Below are positions 9,086 to 31,424 of a DNA stretch of 40,665 nt, one piece after another; within the stretch, counting starts at the first letter, position 1; each line of letters begins with the position of its first letter. The stretch is taken from positions 1-40,665 of IMG/VR virus record IMGVR_UViG_3300028025_004032; one strand, 5' to 3'. Below the pieces are notes generated by a model. It searched no databases, had not been told where the DNA came from, and worked only from the letters and a program-made list of their open reading frames with translations. Source of the DNA: a virus. Both the position numbers and the translations under genes were made by a program.

Positions 9086-9889
9086 TTATTTTTTGCCTAG
9101 TGTTACTTTACTAGACATATCTATTCTATTGCTCAATATAGGCGCACTGTTTTGTGTTCTATCTATGTTCATAGTTCCAGTTCCTGTTACTTTTTTAAAC
9201 GCTCCACGCTTAGTATAAATAGATTCTAAAACCTCTTTATAAGAAGCAAACGCTCCAGCCTTTGCACTTGATAAAACTACTTGACCATTTATATCATAAA
9301 CTACTTCGTTTTGATTTTCGTCAAGTGTAAACTTATACTTGGTTTCGTCAAACGTGCAAGCGTCTCTTATATTCATGTCCTCAACTAAGACAAATTCATT
9401 TTTAGCTTGCCCTAATTTAGAACTAACTATAATCTGAATTTCTTTTTGAGTAAACTCTTTTTCGATATTTTGTTTCTCGTTTGAAACTAAATCAAAGTCA
9501 CCTCTTAGCTTTTCGTTTAATATATTTAAGTCATTAACCTTTTGAGTCAATTTTTCTATTTCATTTCTTGAAGCCTTGTCAGTGTTTTCTTTTAGGCTTG
9601 TATTTGCTTCGGTTAGTTCCACTATTTTAGCTTTATAAGTAGCTATTACAGTCTCTACATTGTCATGCAATTTGCCTTCTAATGTTAATCCTAATTCTTT
9701 AGCTTCTTTGTTTATACGACTATCAACCGCAGTTGCAGCCTTACCGTACAATTTATTTCTTTCAGTTTCGGGAAGTTCGCTAAATCTTTCTGCCACGCTT
9801 CCAATAGGTATATATACACTATTAAATTCAAGCATTGCATCTTCTGGACTAATTCCCTCTTCGCTAGGTACTATTTTAAATTTGCTCAT
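9086..9889 (-). CDS. probable capsid scaffold protein
   Basis: 267 residues with a long coiled coil (about 75-150: IVELTEANTSLKENTDK, IEKLTQKVNDLNILNEKL and following heptads), an acidic N-terminus and a basic C-terminal tail (SNRIDMSSKVTLGKK). This layout, plus the position immediately before the capsid gene, is typical of internal scaffolding proteins that direct capsid assembly and are then removed. No protease motif was seen in it. Assignment rests on composition and synteny. Confidence 0.6.
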   Translation of the reverse strand: MSKFKIVPSEEGISPEDAMLEFNSVYIPIGSVAERFSELPETERNKLYGKAATAVDSRINKEAKELGLTLEGKLHDNVETVIATYKAKIVELTEANTSLKENTDKASRNEIEKLTQKVNDLNILNEKLRGDFDLVSNEKQNIEKEFTQKEIQIIVSSKLGQAKNEFVLVEDMNIRDACTFDETKYKFTLDENQNEVVYDINGQVVLSSAKAGAFASYKEVLESIYTKRGAFKKVTGTGTMNIDRTQNSAPILSNRIDMSSKVTLGKK

Positions 9890-9899
9890 TATTTATTTA

Positions 9900-10283
9900 T
9901 TAGTTGGTTTTTTTTGGTCTTCCTTTTGCCTTAACTGTTGGTAAAGTTAATCCAATATGGCTTACTTCAACTTCATTAACTGGCTCGTTTAGCGGTTCTT
10001 CTATTTCAATTTCTGGCATTTCAACCGATACGCTTTCTGCCTTGCTTTCCACAACTTCCACACTCGGAGCTACTTTTTTTTTAATGTCAGCAGGCGTTCC
10101 TATTTGAGCCTGTAATTTCTCAGCTATGAATGCAGACTTAGCAAAAGTGTTCATTTCAACAAACTGATTTAATTCCTCATCTGAAATCTTGTAAAAACTA
10201 GGTTTATAAAAGTCTTCACTTCTTTCAGCTATCGTTCCTATATTTGATTTATTAGGACTTGTTAGTATTAGAAATTTTGCCAT
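9900..10283 (-). CDS. hypothetical protein at start of head operon
   Basis: 127 residues from the ATG at 10283. An in-frame TTG further upstream (10301) lies inside the -7 promoter box and so cannot be translated from this promoter. The N-terminus MAKFLILTSPNKSNIG is followed by a helical part and a Pro/Glu/Val-rich linker (EMPEIEIEEPLNEPVNEVEV), with a basic end KGRPKKTN. No family is recognised; small proteins with basic AT-hook-like ends near the scaffold may be minor head proteins. Confidence 0.6.
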   Translation of the reverse strand: MAKFLILTSPNKSNIGTIAERSEDFYKPSFYKISDEELNQFVEMNTFAKSAFIAEKLQAQIGTPADIKKKVAPSVEVVESKAESVSVEMPEIEIEEPLNEPVNEVEVSHIGLTLPTVKAKGRPKKTN

Positions 10284-26135: not shown

Positions 26136-26681
26136 TTAAATATGACACCATCTTTTGTTTTTAATTATCTTATGTATTGTTGTGTCTCTAACATTTAATT
26201 TTTTAGCGACCTTTGTTTTATTGAATTTTGGATTAATTTTATTTAGCCTTCTAATAGCCAACACTTGTTTTTCTGTTAATTTAGCGTTTTTAGAATTTTC
26301 CCCTTTTGCATTTATTAATTTTTTTTCTATTGCATGTTTGATGTTTTCAATACGAGAACACCACTCTAAATTATTAAAAACATTGTTTGATTTATTGCCA
26401 TCTTTATGATTTACCTGAGGCTTATTGTCAGGATTTTCTATAAAATGTATAGCAACAAGCCTATGTATATAAAATAATTTTCTTTTATTATTTATTGAAA
26501 CATAAATTTGTTTATATCCTTTTCCATTATCTTGTGACTTGCAAATTCTATCTGATATTGTCCTAAAACCAGATTTTTGAATAAATGAATTTACATTTCT
26601 TTTTTTTCTTTTAACTCTACCTAAATTAGATATTTGATAAAATCCTTGATATTCAGGAATATCCTTCCATATTTCTTCCAT
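26136..26681 (-). CDS. NUMOD4-HNH homing endonuclease, second copy
   Basis: 181 residues from the ATG at 26681 (MEEIWKDIPEYQGFYQISN), which fits the NUMOD4 start; an upstream in-frame GTG at 26726 falls in the structured leader. HNH core HRLVAIHFIENPDN and VNHKDGNKSNNVFNNLEWCS at about 92-130; a C-terminal helix-turn-helix (KVAKKLNVRDTTIHKIIKNK) for DNA binding. Only the HNH core is clearly shared with the copy at 526-1098. The leader with an eight-base stem precedes it. Confidence 0.9.
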   Translation of the reverse strand: MEEIWKDIPEYQGFYQISNLGRVKRKKRNVNSFIQKSGFRTISDRICKSQDNGKGYKQIYVSINNKRKLFYIHRLVAIHFIENPDNKPQVNHKDGNKSNNVFNNLEWCSRIENIKHAIEKKLINAKGENSKNAKLTEKQVLAIRRLNKINPKFNKTKVAKKLNVRDTTIHKIIKNKRWCHI

Positions 26682-26711
26682 ATATTTAAAAAAATAAAGC
26701 CCATTTATTAT

Positions 26712-26799
26712 CATTGAGGGTCTCACTTCTCAAATCAAACAAACAGGCTATGTTCTTTATTCCGCTATTGTGAGACCGCAGATTTTCAATGCAAATATA
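26712..26799 (-). promoter_or_regulatory. promoter and paired leader before homing endonuclease
   Basis: A TATATTTG box (26792-26799) is followed by a leader in which GGTCTCAC (26770-26777) pairs with GTGAGACC (26719-26726); CATTGA and TCAATG (26786-26791 with 26712-26717) form an outer six-base match. The loop is 43 bases. The pairing could fold the leader RNA or mark insertion borders. Confidence 0.5.
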
Positions 26800-28268: not shown

Positions 28269-30029
28269 TCAATCATTGAATGGGTCTATATTTTTTGCAG
28301 TTATCCAATTATGATTGTCCCATGTTGAGCTTTCGTTTACGGTAGGTTCATTAGGTTGAAAGTCTTCTTCAAACCTTCCATTTTTAAAATTATAGCAATG
28401 GTCGGCTATTCCTTGCTCACCTAAATTCTTAAATTTAACTTTCTGCACTGATATAGAACCTTTGTTTATAAATACTCTATTACCATCTTGCTTTCTGCTC
28501 ATAGCTATTCCATAGTCAGTCTTATTCCAAAAGTCAGCCGAACCTGCTATATCGTACATAGTCGGCATAGGAAATTTGCCGTCTTTGTCCTTTTCCAATT
28601 TTCGAGGGTGAGCTACTAAATGTACTAGAACGTCATTAACCTTTGCGAACCATATAATTTTATCCAGCACTTGAGATATGTAGTCTAGTTTAGTTTGACC
28701 AGCTCCGAGCCTGTATTCTAATTTATTGAATGGGTCAATTACGCATATCTTAACGCCTTTTGTTTTTACTAGATATTTGAACTTGTCCAATATATTGTCT
28801 AGTGTGAAGTCATTATCAAGATTAACCCAAAAGAAATTTTTAGCTATGTATTCATGTGCCTCCCAAAATTCAGCTTCCGTTAAAAAGTCTTTTTTAAATG
28901 TTTTTCCGGTTAGCTTTTCAGCTATTTTTGAGTAATGGTATTGAGTAGGGAAGTTTTCAGGTGTCCAATATGCTACCTTCCAGTTGTGTTCAAAGTTTAA
29001 CTTACAATTCACCATGTCTACAAACTCTGACTTACCAGAACTTGGAGTTCCTGTCCACGTTGCTAATCTTTTAGTCTCCCATGTGATTAAAGTATCTAAC
29101 CATTTTAAGCCTGTAATTTTGCCTTTTTGCATTCCTTTCTCGTATAAGTCCATAATGTCGGACAAATAGTCTTCAGCTTCTAATATGCCTTCTATTTTTG
29201 GAACTCTAGCTTTGTTAATGAACTCTTTTAATACTCCATATCCGTTATTCATTAGGCAGTCATTAGCGTCTTTGTATTCGTTAAATTCCACTATATAGCA
29301 TTTCTCAAATCCAAAACGTCTTATTAATTCGGCTCTTAATTCTAATCCTTTTTCATCATTATCCACCGCAATATAGATTTTTTCCATAGCGTCAAATAGG
29401 TTTATGGTCTCATCTAGGTAGCTCATTTTGCCTACGTTCGCTCCATTGGGAACTGATATAACATTTTGAAATCCATCAGCCATAAAGCTAAGTGCATCCC
29501 ACTCACCTTCAACTATTATAATCTCCTTAGTGTTTAGAATAGCATCGTAATTATACCATATCAATTCAGCTCCCTTAGATAGTTTGAAGTTTTTTTTGCC
29601 GTCTCGATACTTTACATTGACAAGTTCACTGTTCCTGTAGTAAGGAAAACAAATACAGCGTTCTATCTTATTTGATTGCGGCATAAATTCCTCTGCGCTG
29701 CTTATTTCCATTTTAATTAGCGTTTCACTGTTAATCATTCGAGAGTGCGCATATTGCACCGCTTTTTCAGATAGCTGAGTTTTGTTTTCAAACTTTGGAA
29801 TTTCATATATAACCTCTTTTGAATATGGCTTGTATTCATGGAATCGAGATTGGCAGTGATTACAATATCCTTGAGCTTTTTCTGCATTGTAGCTAAATGA
29901 CTTTGCACTCTTTTTCCTTCTATCTTGTGCGCAGTCTGGACAAGGTTGTGCATTTTCACCTTGCTTATGAATATCTATTTCAAATATTCTATCTGAGCCT
30001 ACTTTTTTTATTTTAATACTAGAACTCAT
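28269..30029 (-). CDS. TOPRIM primase-helicase, T7 gp4-like
   Basis: 586 residues. A zinc ribbon (CPDC at 30-33, CNHC at 56-59) is followed by a TOPRIM primase core with IIIVEGEWD (170-178) and YIAVDNDEKG (about 219-228), then a RecA-like helicase with Walker A TGTPSSGKS (about 316-324) and Walker B KICVIDPFNKL. The protein would make primers and unwind DNA at the fork. No DNA polymerase is visible in the window. It overlaps the organiser-like gene by 11 bases. Confidence 0.9.
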   Translation of the reverse strand: MSSSIKIKKVGSDRIFEIDIHKQGENAQPCPDCAQDRRKKSAKSFSYNAEKAQGYCNHCQSRFHEYKPYSKEVIYEIPKFENKTQLSEKAVQYAHSRMINSETLIKMEISSAEEFMPQSNKIERCICFPYYRNSELVNVKYRDGKKNFKLSKGAELIWYNYDAILNTKEIIIVEGEWDALSFMADGFQNVISVPNGANVGKMSYLDETINLFDAMEKIYIAVDNDEKGLELRAELIRRFGFEKCYIVEFNEYKDANDCLMNNGYGVLKEFINKARVPKIEGILEAEDYLSDIMDLYEKGMQKGKITGLKWLDTLITWETKRLATWTGTPSSGKSEFVDMVNCKLNFEHNWKVAYWTPENFPTQYHYSKIAEKLTGKTFKKDFLTEAEFWEAHEYIAKNFFWVNLDNDFTLDNILDKFKYLVKTKGVKICVIDPFNKLEYRLGAGQTKLDYISQVLDKIIWFAKVNDVLVHLVAHPRKLEKDKDGKFPMPTMYDIAGSADFWNKTDYGIAMSRKQDGNRVFINKGSISVQKVKFKNLGEQGIADHCYNFKNGRFEEDFQPNEPTVNESSTWDNHNWITAKNIDPFND

Positions 30030-30762
30030 ATTGTTGTTGTTTTAATCTGTCACTTAAACTAGGTTGTGAATCACAGAGCGCAAAATAAGGATTGTTAGAT
30101 ACGAACTCCTTTTTTACATATTCCACTGGTTTGTTTTTTTCATAACCCGCCAAAAATACATCAATGTATAAAACTCCGTCTTTATTTTTTGTATTTAACT
30201 TTGCTGGACTTAAAAACTGAGCATTCCAAAAATTATCTCCCTTTGCCCATTTGATAGCATTTATTATTTGCTCTTTTTTATAGCTGCTTAAAAGTAAAGT
30301 CAAAGTAGATTTTGTTTTTTCTGATAAATATTTACTATCAAATATATTATCTATATCAGTTATAATTTCATTTACATCTTCATTTACAATTAGCTTTTTT
30401 GTAGGTTTGGCTGTAGGTTTAGCTAATGGTAAACCTATAGGTTTTTCTTCTTCTGTATTTTCTTTTTTAGGTCTTCCTCCTAAACTTCCGTTAGTTCTAC
30501 GAGTTCCAACAAAATTAGCTCTTTTTTCAATCTCAATTTCTAATCGTTCATTATAAAATAAGCCATTTTCATCTTTTTTAAATTTAGATAGAATATCATC
30601 CGAAACTATACCTACAGATAACCTAATGGTTTTTTCAGATAAATGTCCAGTTTGATGCTGAATGCAAAGTAAAGAAATGTATTGTCCACGTTCCTCCATA
30701 GTCAAGTTAGTACAACCTGTAAGGAAGTCACTAGAATAAAATAAAAATGCTGGGTCTTTCAT
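30019..30762 (-). CDS. DUF1376-type replisome organiser-like protein
   Basis: 247 residues. The N-terminus (PAFLFYSSDFLTGCTNLTME, then ERGQYISLLCIQHQTGHLS) matches DUF1376-type winged-helix domains found in phage replication initiators; the central linker is Lys/Pro-rich (KPIGLPLAKPTAKPTKK) and the C-terminus ILxxYKKxxIINAIKWAKGDNFW resembles the part that recruits a helicase. It probably loads the primase-helicase encoded right after it. It overlaps the nuclease gene by four bases. Confidence 0.75.
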   Translation of the reverse strand: MKDPAFLFYSSDFLTGCTNLTMEERGQYISLLCIQHQTGHLSEKTIRLSVGIVSDDILSKFKKDENGLFYNERLEIEIEKRANFVGTRRTNGSLGGRPKKENTEEEKPIGLPLAKPTAKPTKKLIVNEDVNEIITDIDNIFDSKYLSEKTKSTLTLLLSSYKKEQIINAIKWAKGDNFWNAQFLSPAKLNTKNKDGVLYIDVFLAGYEKNKPVEYVKKEFVSNNPYFALCDSQPSLSDRLKQQQYEF

Positions 30763-31271
30763 ATTAGCTTATCTTTAAATCCTGAATCAATTAATTTATA
30801 TCCAGAAATATTTTTAAAATTAATTCCATTTACATCGTATGAAACTTTATAAAAGTTAAGGCTTCCATACAAATCATAACATTCGTTATTTAATCTTATT
30901 AGGTCAGGTAAATATATGAAATTTGACATATCTACACTAGTTCCTATTAATGTAATATTAATTCTAAATTCAAAAAAATGTCTTTTATATAAATATTCAG
31001 TAATGCCTTTTGCATATTTAATGGATTGTAAAAAAGTTTGAATATTTACAATGTCTTGCTTAAGTTCAATAATATCTATATCTAATATAGAAGTAGTATT
31101 ACCTTCAATTTCCTCTACAGCTCTACTAAAAGTAACTATGTCAGCAATACCATAGTTTCCTATTTTTAATTGCCTAATTTTTCTACCAAAAATTTCAAGA
31201 CCTTTTTCTTGTAATGCTTGATTTGAACTTTCAAAGACTATGTCTTCTAATTCTTTTTCAGATAATTTCAT
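30759..31271 (-). CDS. PD-(D/E)XK-like nuclease-fold protein
   Basis: 170 residues. An N-terminal helix with Glu (KELEDIVFESSNQALQ) is followed by YGIADIVTFSRA (Asp), and DIIELKQDIVNIQTFLQSIKY (Glu, Lys, Gln), the order of a PD-(D/E)XK core. It is the first gene of the replication block and is preceded by an unusual 117-base leader with interleaved complementary segments. Endonuclease activity is inferred; a similar fold also occurs in inactive regulators. Confidence 0.6.
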   Translation of the reverse strand: MKLSEKELEDIVFESSNQALQEKGLEIFGRKIRQLKIGNYGIADIVTFSRAVEEIEGNTTSILDIDIIELKQDIVNIQTFLQSIKYAKGITEYLYKRHFFEFRINITLIGTSVDMSNFIYLPDLIRLNNECYDLYGSLNFYKVSYDVNGINFKNISGYKLIDSGFKDKLI

Positions 31272-31274
31272 AAT

Positions 31275-31393
31275 GTAGTGTGTTTAATAAAAAGAGTGCC
31301 TTAGCCACACTACTAGCACGCAACTTATAAAAGTTACTTTCAGCACTCCGTATTGTTAATAAAAAATTTCTTGACATTTTGTAGTGTATTAGT
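31275..31393 (-). ncRNA. structured leader RNA, pseudoknot or switch candidate
   Basis: Transcribed from the promoter at 31397. In RNA order: GAGTGC (31348-31343), hairpin GTAACTT/AAGTTGC with loop TTAT, GTAGTGTG (31313-31306), GCACTC (31299-31294) followed by TTTTT, and CACACTAC (31282-31275) just before the ATG at 31271. The two pairings interleave (A-B-A'-B'), so they form a pseudoknot or exclude each other. A further ACACTAC (31387-31381) can also pair with B. Confidence 0.6.
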
Positions 31394-31396
31394 ATG

Positions 31397-31424
31397 CAAA
31401 TATAATACATTTTTTTTAAATCAA
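31397..31424 (-). promoter_or_regulatory. promoter of structured leader
   Basis: TATATTTG (31397-31404), 17-base spacer and TTG (31422-31424) on the minus strand. Confidence 0.6.

Follow-up and report, generated by a model that had tools for sequence, protein, structure and literature searches.

The window analyzed here is the whole 40,665-nucleotide stretch of the viral record IMGVR_UViG_3300028025_004032. On its minus strand, a leader extends from a promoter-like box at 31404-31397 to the ATG at 31271 of a gene for a 170-residue protein, and the genes that follow encode a replication-initiation type protein and a TOPRIM primase/helicase (Table 1). A replication protein and a primase/helicase were found downstream of the leader in relatives as well. 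The conserved residues of the 170-residue protein (E9, D44, E69-L-K71, and Q82) correspond to the pattern of PD-(D/E)xK nucleases. Its fold was predicted with confidence (pLDDT 88.5), and the best Foldseek matches were PD-(D/E)xK endonucleases at an E value, 0.02, that is not significant. In viral contigs, this protein has 11 close relatives and, in a wider circle, at least 80. The replication proteins of the window (30019-30762) and of two related loci, L105 and L202, have unrelated N-terminal parts and a common C-terminal module (...FVSNNPYFALCDSQPSLSDRLKQQQ), which points, judging from the sequences, to an exchange of modules within the replication operon.

Table 1. Positions of the two leaders and of the genes behind the first leader in the window
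Feature	Position	Strand	Basis
Promoter -7 box TATATTTG, Bacteroidetes TAnnTTTG type	31397..31404	-	sequence
Expected transcription start, a few bases past the box	about 31393-31390	-	expectation from box
Segment A (ACACTAC), complement of B, 3 nt upstream of the upstream ORF start	31381..31387	-	sequence; word-triple shuffle test
Upstream ORF, 39 codons (MSRNFLLTIRS...), ATG 31377, covers T, B, and C	31258..31377	-	ORF reading
Stem T, 5' strand GGAGTGCT (core GAGTGC 31348-31343), terminator-like	31342..31349	-	sequence; crossing-helix test
Seven-pair internal hairpin GTAACTT-TTAT-AAGTTGC (31337-31331/31326-31320)	31320..31337	-	folding, comparison
Segment B GTAGTGTG, inside the T loop; partner A or C	31306..31313	-	sequence; word-triple test; energies
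Stem T, 3' strand GGCACTCT (core GCACTC 31299-31294)	31293..31300	-	sequence; crossing-helix test
U-run (TTTTT) straight after T; possible termination point near 31289	31289..31293	-	sequence
Segment C CACACTAC, complement of B, 3 nt ahead of the ATG of the nuclease-like gene	31275..31282	-	sequence; word-triple test; energies
First gene, 170 aa, PD-(D/E)xK-type motif	30759..31271	-	conserved residues; predicted fold; Foldseek
Rest of operon	28269..30762	-	protein matches
Replication-initiation type protein	30019-30762	-	
TOPRIM primase/helicase	28269-30029	-	
Second leader, -7 box TATATTTG	26792..26799	-	scan
Second leader, A2 GGTCTCAC	26777-26770	-	scan
Second leader, T2 5' strand AGCCTGTTTGTT	26749-26738	-	scan
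Second leader, B2 GTGAGACC	26726-26719	-	scan
Second leader, T2 3' strand AATAAATGGGCT, then U-rich	26709-26698	-	scan

The box at the head of the leader agrees with the consensus TAnnTTTG of sigma-ABfr of the Bacteroidetes (PMC7366714); an earlier note on this DNA had placed a clear promoter here. The segments singled out in that note (GAGTGC and GCACTC with the five T, segments B and C, ACACTAC, and the seven-pair hairpin) were all found in the sequence where it had placed them. The pairings had been described as crossing, and so as forming a pseudoknot or competing, and this was borne out: A:B and B:C each cross stem T and are mutually exclusive, and the best crossing helix pair in the leader was superior to that of all 60 dinucleotide shuffles (z -3.1). 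The word A, repeated as C with the reverse complement between the two copies, occurred in only 3 of 5000 shuffles. The nested minimum free energy of the leader was ordinary relative to shuffles (z -0.10); plain folding of this kind gives no signal because the key pairings cross. The predicted energies of A:B and B:C are similar, with B:C about equal to A:B or stronger, and the T fold and the B:C fold were calculated at -19.6 and -20.7 kcal/mol, respectively. Stem T of the window is short (6-8 pairs) and encloses a loop of about 40 nt. By itself it is a weak terminator, and it was not reported in a simple-terminator scan of the window. The predicted energies do not show which of T, A:B, and B:C prevails in the cell.

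The same design was found ahead of almost every relative of the nuclease-like gene. In 78 upstream regions of this gene family, an A:B pairing that crosses T was present in about 60, and 61 regions surpassed all 60 of their own shuffles. Within these 61 strong regions, a U-run follows the stem directly in 57, the element lies no more than 30 nt from the ATG in 58, and a box is found within 45 nt upstream in 49. A score of -30 or better was reached by 0.9% of the regions before other ORFs of the same loci, compared with 73% here. The order of the parts is retained in other letters: box, A near the 5' end, 5' strand of T, B, 3' strand of T, U-run, and start codon. Segment A had been recognized in the earlier note as a third partner for B behind the promoter, and it is A:B across T that the relatives conserve. 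The note had put B:C first. The complementarity is present, but in the wider family B:C is an addition made by the subtype to which the window belongs.

Covariation was evaluated with 13 leaders of one subgroup, using a MAFFT alignment that was not fitted to the structure. The named structure was paired in 90.1% of the cells, versus 73.2% after shuffling, with double changes in 18 pairs and a covariation score of 0.557 against 0.229 in shuffles (0 of 500). When one side of the structure was slid along the other, pairing fell to 31-51%. The A:B helix was 97.8% paired, with double changes in six of its seven pairs. Stem T itself covaries, and nearly the whole family retains it together with the U-run. 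In this subgroup and in others, a small hairpin at the 5' end (GGAAT-GTTCAGG-ATTCC is one example) carries A in its loop, and thus A:B is a loop-loop kiss between the 5' hairpin and the terminator-like hairpin. A conserved unpaired aptamer core, as expected of a riboswitch or another leader that binds a ligand, was not found in the family: the pairing is kept while the letters are re-spelled, and conservation outside the stems is confined to subgroups. From these tests we infer, with very little doubt remaining, that a conserved structure exists. A lack of conserved pairing in homologues, which the earlier note had named as grounds for refutation, was not encountered, given the extensive compensatory change and the re-spelled triples described below.

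Three copies of one word beside a promoter, two direct and one inverted, would also co-vary if A, B, and C were copies of a repressor site in the DNA rather than pairing elements of an RNA. This explanation is highly improbable, since most of the family has only A and B, B is always enclosed by the covarying T stem as part of its loop, the 5' hairpins present A in a loop, and A and B of locus L244 are joined by a G-U wobble.

The leader is found ahead of quite different genes, so its occurrence does not depend on the nuclease-like gene. At loci where no nuclease gene is present, it stands before DUF6291, HNH, primase-operon, and other genes. Among 58 loci chosen by their DUF6291 replication-type protein, most of which lack a nuclease gene immediately behind the leader, about half carry a strong leader, and the box nearly always stands 7-20 nt before A. 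At L202, an HNH gene is next after the leader. The DUF6291 query did not retrieve named phages; DUF6291 was found in 5 of 199 Flavobacteriaceae genomes, with no boxed leader at those loci. Nor does the leader follow the nuclease-like protein everywhere, as the element is missing beside the homologues in BF1-TP2, Vibrio D279, and L007. Related leaders were also observed before ParB-like, DUF4373-like, methyltransferase, and small unknown genes (L230, L200, L208, L221, L226, and L248), which makes it probable that the family extends beyond the members analyzed here.

The variety of downstream genes bears on another explanation, a type III toxin-antitoxin system, in which the pseudoknot RNA would be the antitoxin and the nuclease-like protein the toxin. 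The order of promoter, pseudoknot RNA, terminator-like end, and small nuclease-type gene would suit it, and ToxI, TenpI, and CptI are likewise pseudoknotted phage or plasmid RNAs before a small gene. Unlike these, the leader is present as a single copy without tandem repeats, and the gene behind it varies and is not a ToxN-type toxin, with no ToxN/AbiQ-like Pfam match downstream. The occurrence of the same RNA before unlinked genes contradicts this explanation, and we give it hardly any credence.

The earlier note had described about 117 non-coding bases between the promoter and the gene. The interval is indeed a promoter-to-gene leader, but it is not purely non-coding, for it contains an ORF of 39 codons from ATG 31377. 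This upstream ORF ends at 31258 and overlaps the start of the main gene in the +1 frame. In leaders of this type, the start codon of the ORF lies within A or shortly behind it, and no stop interrupts the frame across the structure until the main start is reached or passed; in L113, the stop codon of the ORF overlaps the main start (TAATG). The ORF was open in all seven leaders of this type that were tested, compared with 2-23% of the shuffles for each, where only shuffles having an early ATG were counted. The peptide sequence is not conserved among the variants, and hence it is the act of translation, if anything, that matters. The openness of the 39-codon ORF in all of these relatives could also mean that the leader is a short protein-coding gene with accidental complementarities. 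That is very improbable: the variants preserve the pairings but encode unrelated peptides, an ORF at this place is lacking in most of the family, and the covariation contradicts such a reading.

The leaders of L013 and L014 are identical to that of the window, with flanks that differ by 8-17% (83-92% identity), and the gene after the leader in these two loci is a different one, of replication type. The words of L099 are nearly identical to those of the window. Re-spelled versions of the A-B-C arrangement were found by pattern searches and then subjected to the word-triple test against shuffles. The MAFFT alignment of window-type leaders shifts B by one column in some rows, and because of this misplacement the shuffle test was used in place of pair counts from that alignment. 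The triple is re-spelled in L193, L244, L202, L113, L168, and L157 (0-8 of 5000 shuffles each), and at least six spellings other than that of the window were found. For A, B, and C, respectively, the words are ATCGAC, GTCGAT, and ATCGAC in L101, L102, L193, and L219; AACACGGC, GTCGTGTT, and AACACGAC in L105 and L244; AATCCTACA, TGTAGGATT, and AATCCTACA in L202; CACCACA, TGTGGTG, and CACCACA in L113; and TGCGAAACAG, CTGTTTCGCA, and TGCGAAACAG in L168. L157 has the 5' hairpin plus C. A hairpin of other sequence occupies the site equivalent to the internal seven-pair hairpin in L193, L244, and L202. The triple is not present in most of the wider leader family, and many members have neither the upstream ORF nor C, so any translation-coupled part is limited to the subtype of the window. 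As a separate observation, a near-palindrome (ATACGGAAYGTATG or TAACGGAATGTTATG) lies over the start codon in L001, L002, L004, L005, L009, L015, L033, and others; its role is unknown.

In all leaders with the upstream ORF, A and C overlap the two start codons or are no more than 4 nt away from them. Since A and C each stand beside a start codon, B can cover either start. It is thus conceivable that the leader is a translational switch only, in which B masks the main start by pairing with C and the upstream start by pairing with A, T and its U-run being incidental. The strength of B:C, at least about equal to that of A:B, would be in keeping with this. We consider it unlikely, however, because most members of the family lack C, yet nearly all retain T and its U-run, and T covaries.

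A second leader was found in the window at 26799-26681 on the minus strand (Table 1), ahead of a NUMOD/HNH-type gene with its ATG at 26681 or 26670. The listed ORF at 26136-26726 probably starts at one of these two codons instead. The scan score of this leader was -32.0, and the number expected at -30 or below in shuffles was 0.0. It has no C element, and its kissing word (GGTCTCAC/GTGAGACC) is different from that of the first leader. Unannotated leaders were also found in phage isolates: Cellulophaga phages Nekkels_1 and phi10:1; Tenacibaculum phage JQ; and Flavobacterium phages elemoA, FCL-2, and snusmum6-1. The last of these (L265, MN812234) has three, at 9715, 13656, and 14691, each with its own word. 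A scan of the sequence behind each TAnnTTTG box was run on seven complete or near-complete phage genomes; it produced 9 hits with a score of -27.5 or better, where shuffles gave about 0.4 in all. In Riemerella phage PJN03, the closest by primase, there is no leader at the corresponding place. Upstream of its portal gene, at 10187, Nekkels_1 (L263) may have a second leader, one whose first loop contains an additional hairpin; this case is unsettled.

The kissing words do not cross-pair within one genome, either between the two leaders of the window or among the three of snusmum6-1. Between close pairs of leaders, the p-distance of the kissing word was 0.42-0.44, versus 0.05-0.34 for the other leader segments, which suggests, from few sequences, that the rate of change of the word is no lower than that of the rest, even though it must pair. 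Both observations would be compatible with an RNA that acts in trans: the terminated leader would accumulate as a small RNA and act on identical leaders carried by sister genomes or by incoming ones, for copy-number control or superinfection exclusion, as do P4 CI RNA or P1 C4 RNA, and the A-B-C layout equals seqA-seqB-seqC of P4. We think it unlikely that the leader functions in this way. A and B reside on the same molecule, where pairing in cis should win, and a search of the window for a further antisense copy of B gave none above chance level. The rate comparison rests on only 13 sequences. There is no integrase among the window proteins scanned, and the nuclease-type gene that is often next after the leader was found in one of about 85,000 cellular genomes; from these two results, the phages look mostly non-lysogenic.

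We very likely have here a real and apparently undescribed RNA switch. The reading that we favor, with some reserve, is that of a cis-acting leader RNA, belonging to a family ahead of replication and other operons of Bacteroidetes phages, that carries an antisense segment of its own and acts as an attenuator. Conserved pairings, a promoter-like box, a U-run, and an upstream ORF are observed directly, and the covariation is established. That the leader really terminates transcription or masks translation, and that it switches, is inferred in the absence of RNA data. The features of an attenuator are present, namely a terminator-like stem and U-run between the promoter and the first gene and an alternative pairing that crosses the stem. 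In the proposed mechanism, T would stop transcription about 100 nt after the start, with release of a short structured RNA, and the A:B pairing would set the frequency of termination. In the subtype of the window, A stands just before the start of the upstream ORF, and C, as a copy of A, just before that of the real gene. With the operon off, B would pair with A and block the upstream ORF, and T would form. With the operon on, ribosomes starting on the upstream ORF would open both T and B:C, and transcription would pass. Such a ribosome would end on top of the main start, a position that may favor coupled initiation or reinitiation.

A match to a known leader class had not been recognized in the earlier note, and none was obtained from Rfam, either at the gathering threshold or, in any meaningful form, up to an E value of 10. 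A match to TtnuHACA8 on L052 (28.5 bits, cutoff 50) was rejected as compositional. No description of this leader class was found in the literature, where only open-licence papers were covered. RNA control in the phages of Bacteroidetes is almost uncharted, and this strongly covarying class occurs in dozens of metagenomic phages, unannotated in isolates with named hosts, at the entrance to replication operons. Because the kissing words are orthogonal, action in cis and in trans can be distinguished by direct test. Natural switches based on terminator-loop kissing, available in many orthogonal words, would also be useful parts for gene regulation in Bacteroidetes. A bolder and doubtful proposal is that this large undescribed family, in which the 5' end kisses the terminator loop and several mutually orthogonal words per genome diversify between phages, provides RNA-based dosage control or self-exclusion of Bacteroidetes phages, each released RNA recognizing only its own operon and kind.

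Several known systems work in similar ways. In attenuators of the trp type, translation of a short ORF over the terminator region can likewise decide read-through; the present leaders differ in having no conserved peptide or regulatory codons, and A and C are start-site elements that share one anti-element, B. The isrK leader of Gifsy-1 (isrK-orf45-anrP) is likewise a phage leader; it either ends as a small RNA or is read through, and its small ORF is coupled in translation to the gene that follows (PMC4825925). The leader described here, for which such behavior is inferred, has no Rfam match. In isrK, we know of no kissing contact between the 5' end and the loop of the terminator.

The closest parallel is with CI RNA of P4 and with C4 RNA of P1 and P7. 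In P4, reportedly, translation over the termination region prevents termination. Pairing of the CI RNA with two segments, seqA on its upstream and seqC on its downstream side, shuts off the replication genes through premature termination (PMC4825925). Features in common are the location in an untranslated leader before phage replication genes, an antisense segment inside the leader that is complementary to a segment on either side of it, and premature termination as the proposed outcome. Unlike CI RNA, to which there is no homology in Rfam terms, the leaders described here carry the antisense segment in the loop of a U-run hairpin terminator, have the upstream partner at the very 5' end and mostly no downstream partner, can occur in several orthogonal copies in one genome, and also precede genes other than replication genes; a stable trans-acting RNA has not been demonstrated for them. 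Because there is no Rfam match and the phages look mostly non-lysogenic, the resemblance to P4 is a likeness in working and not membership.
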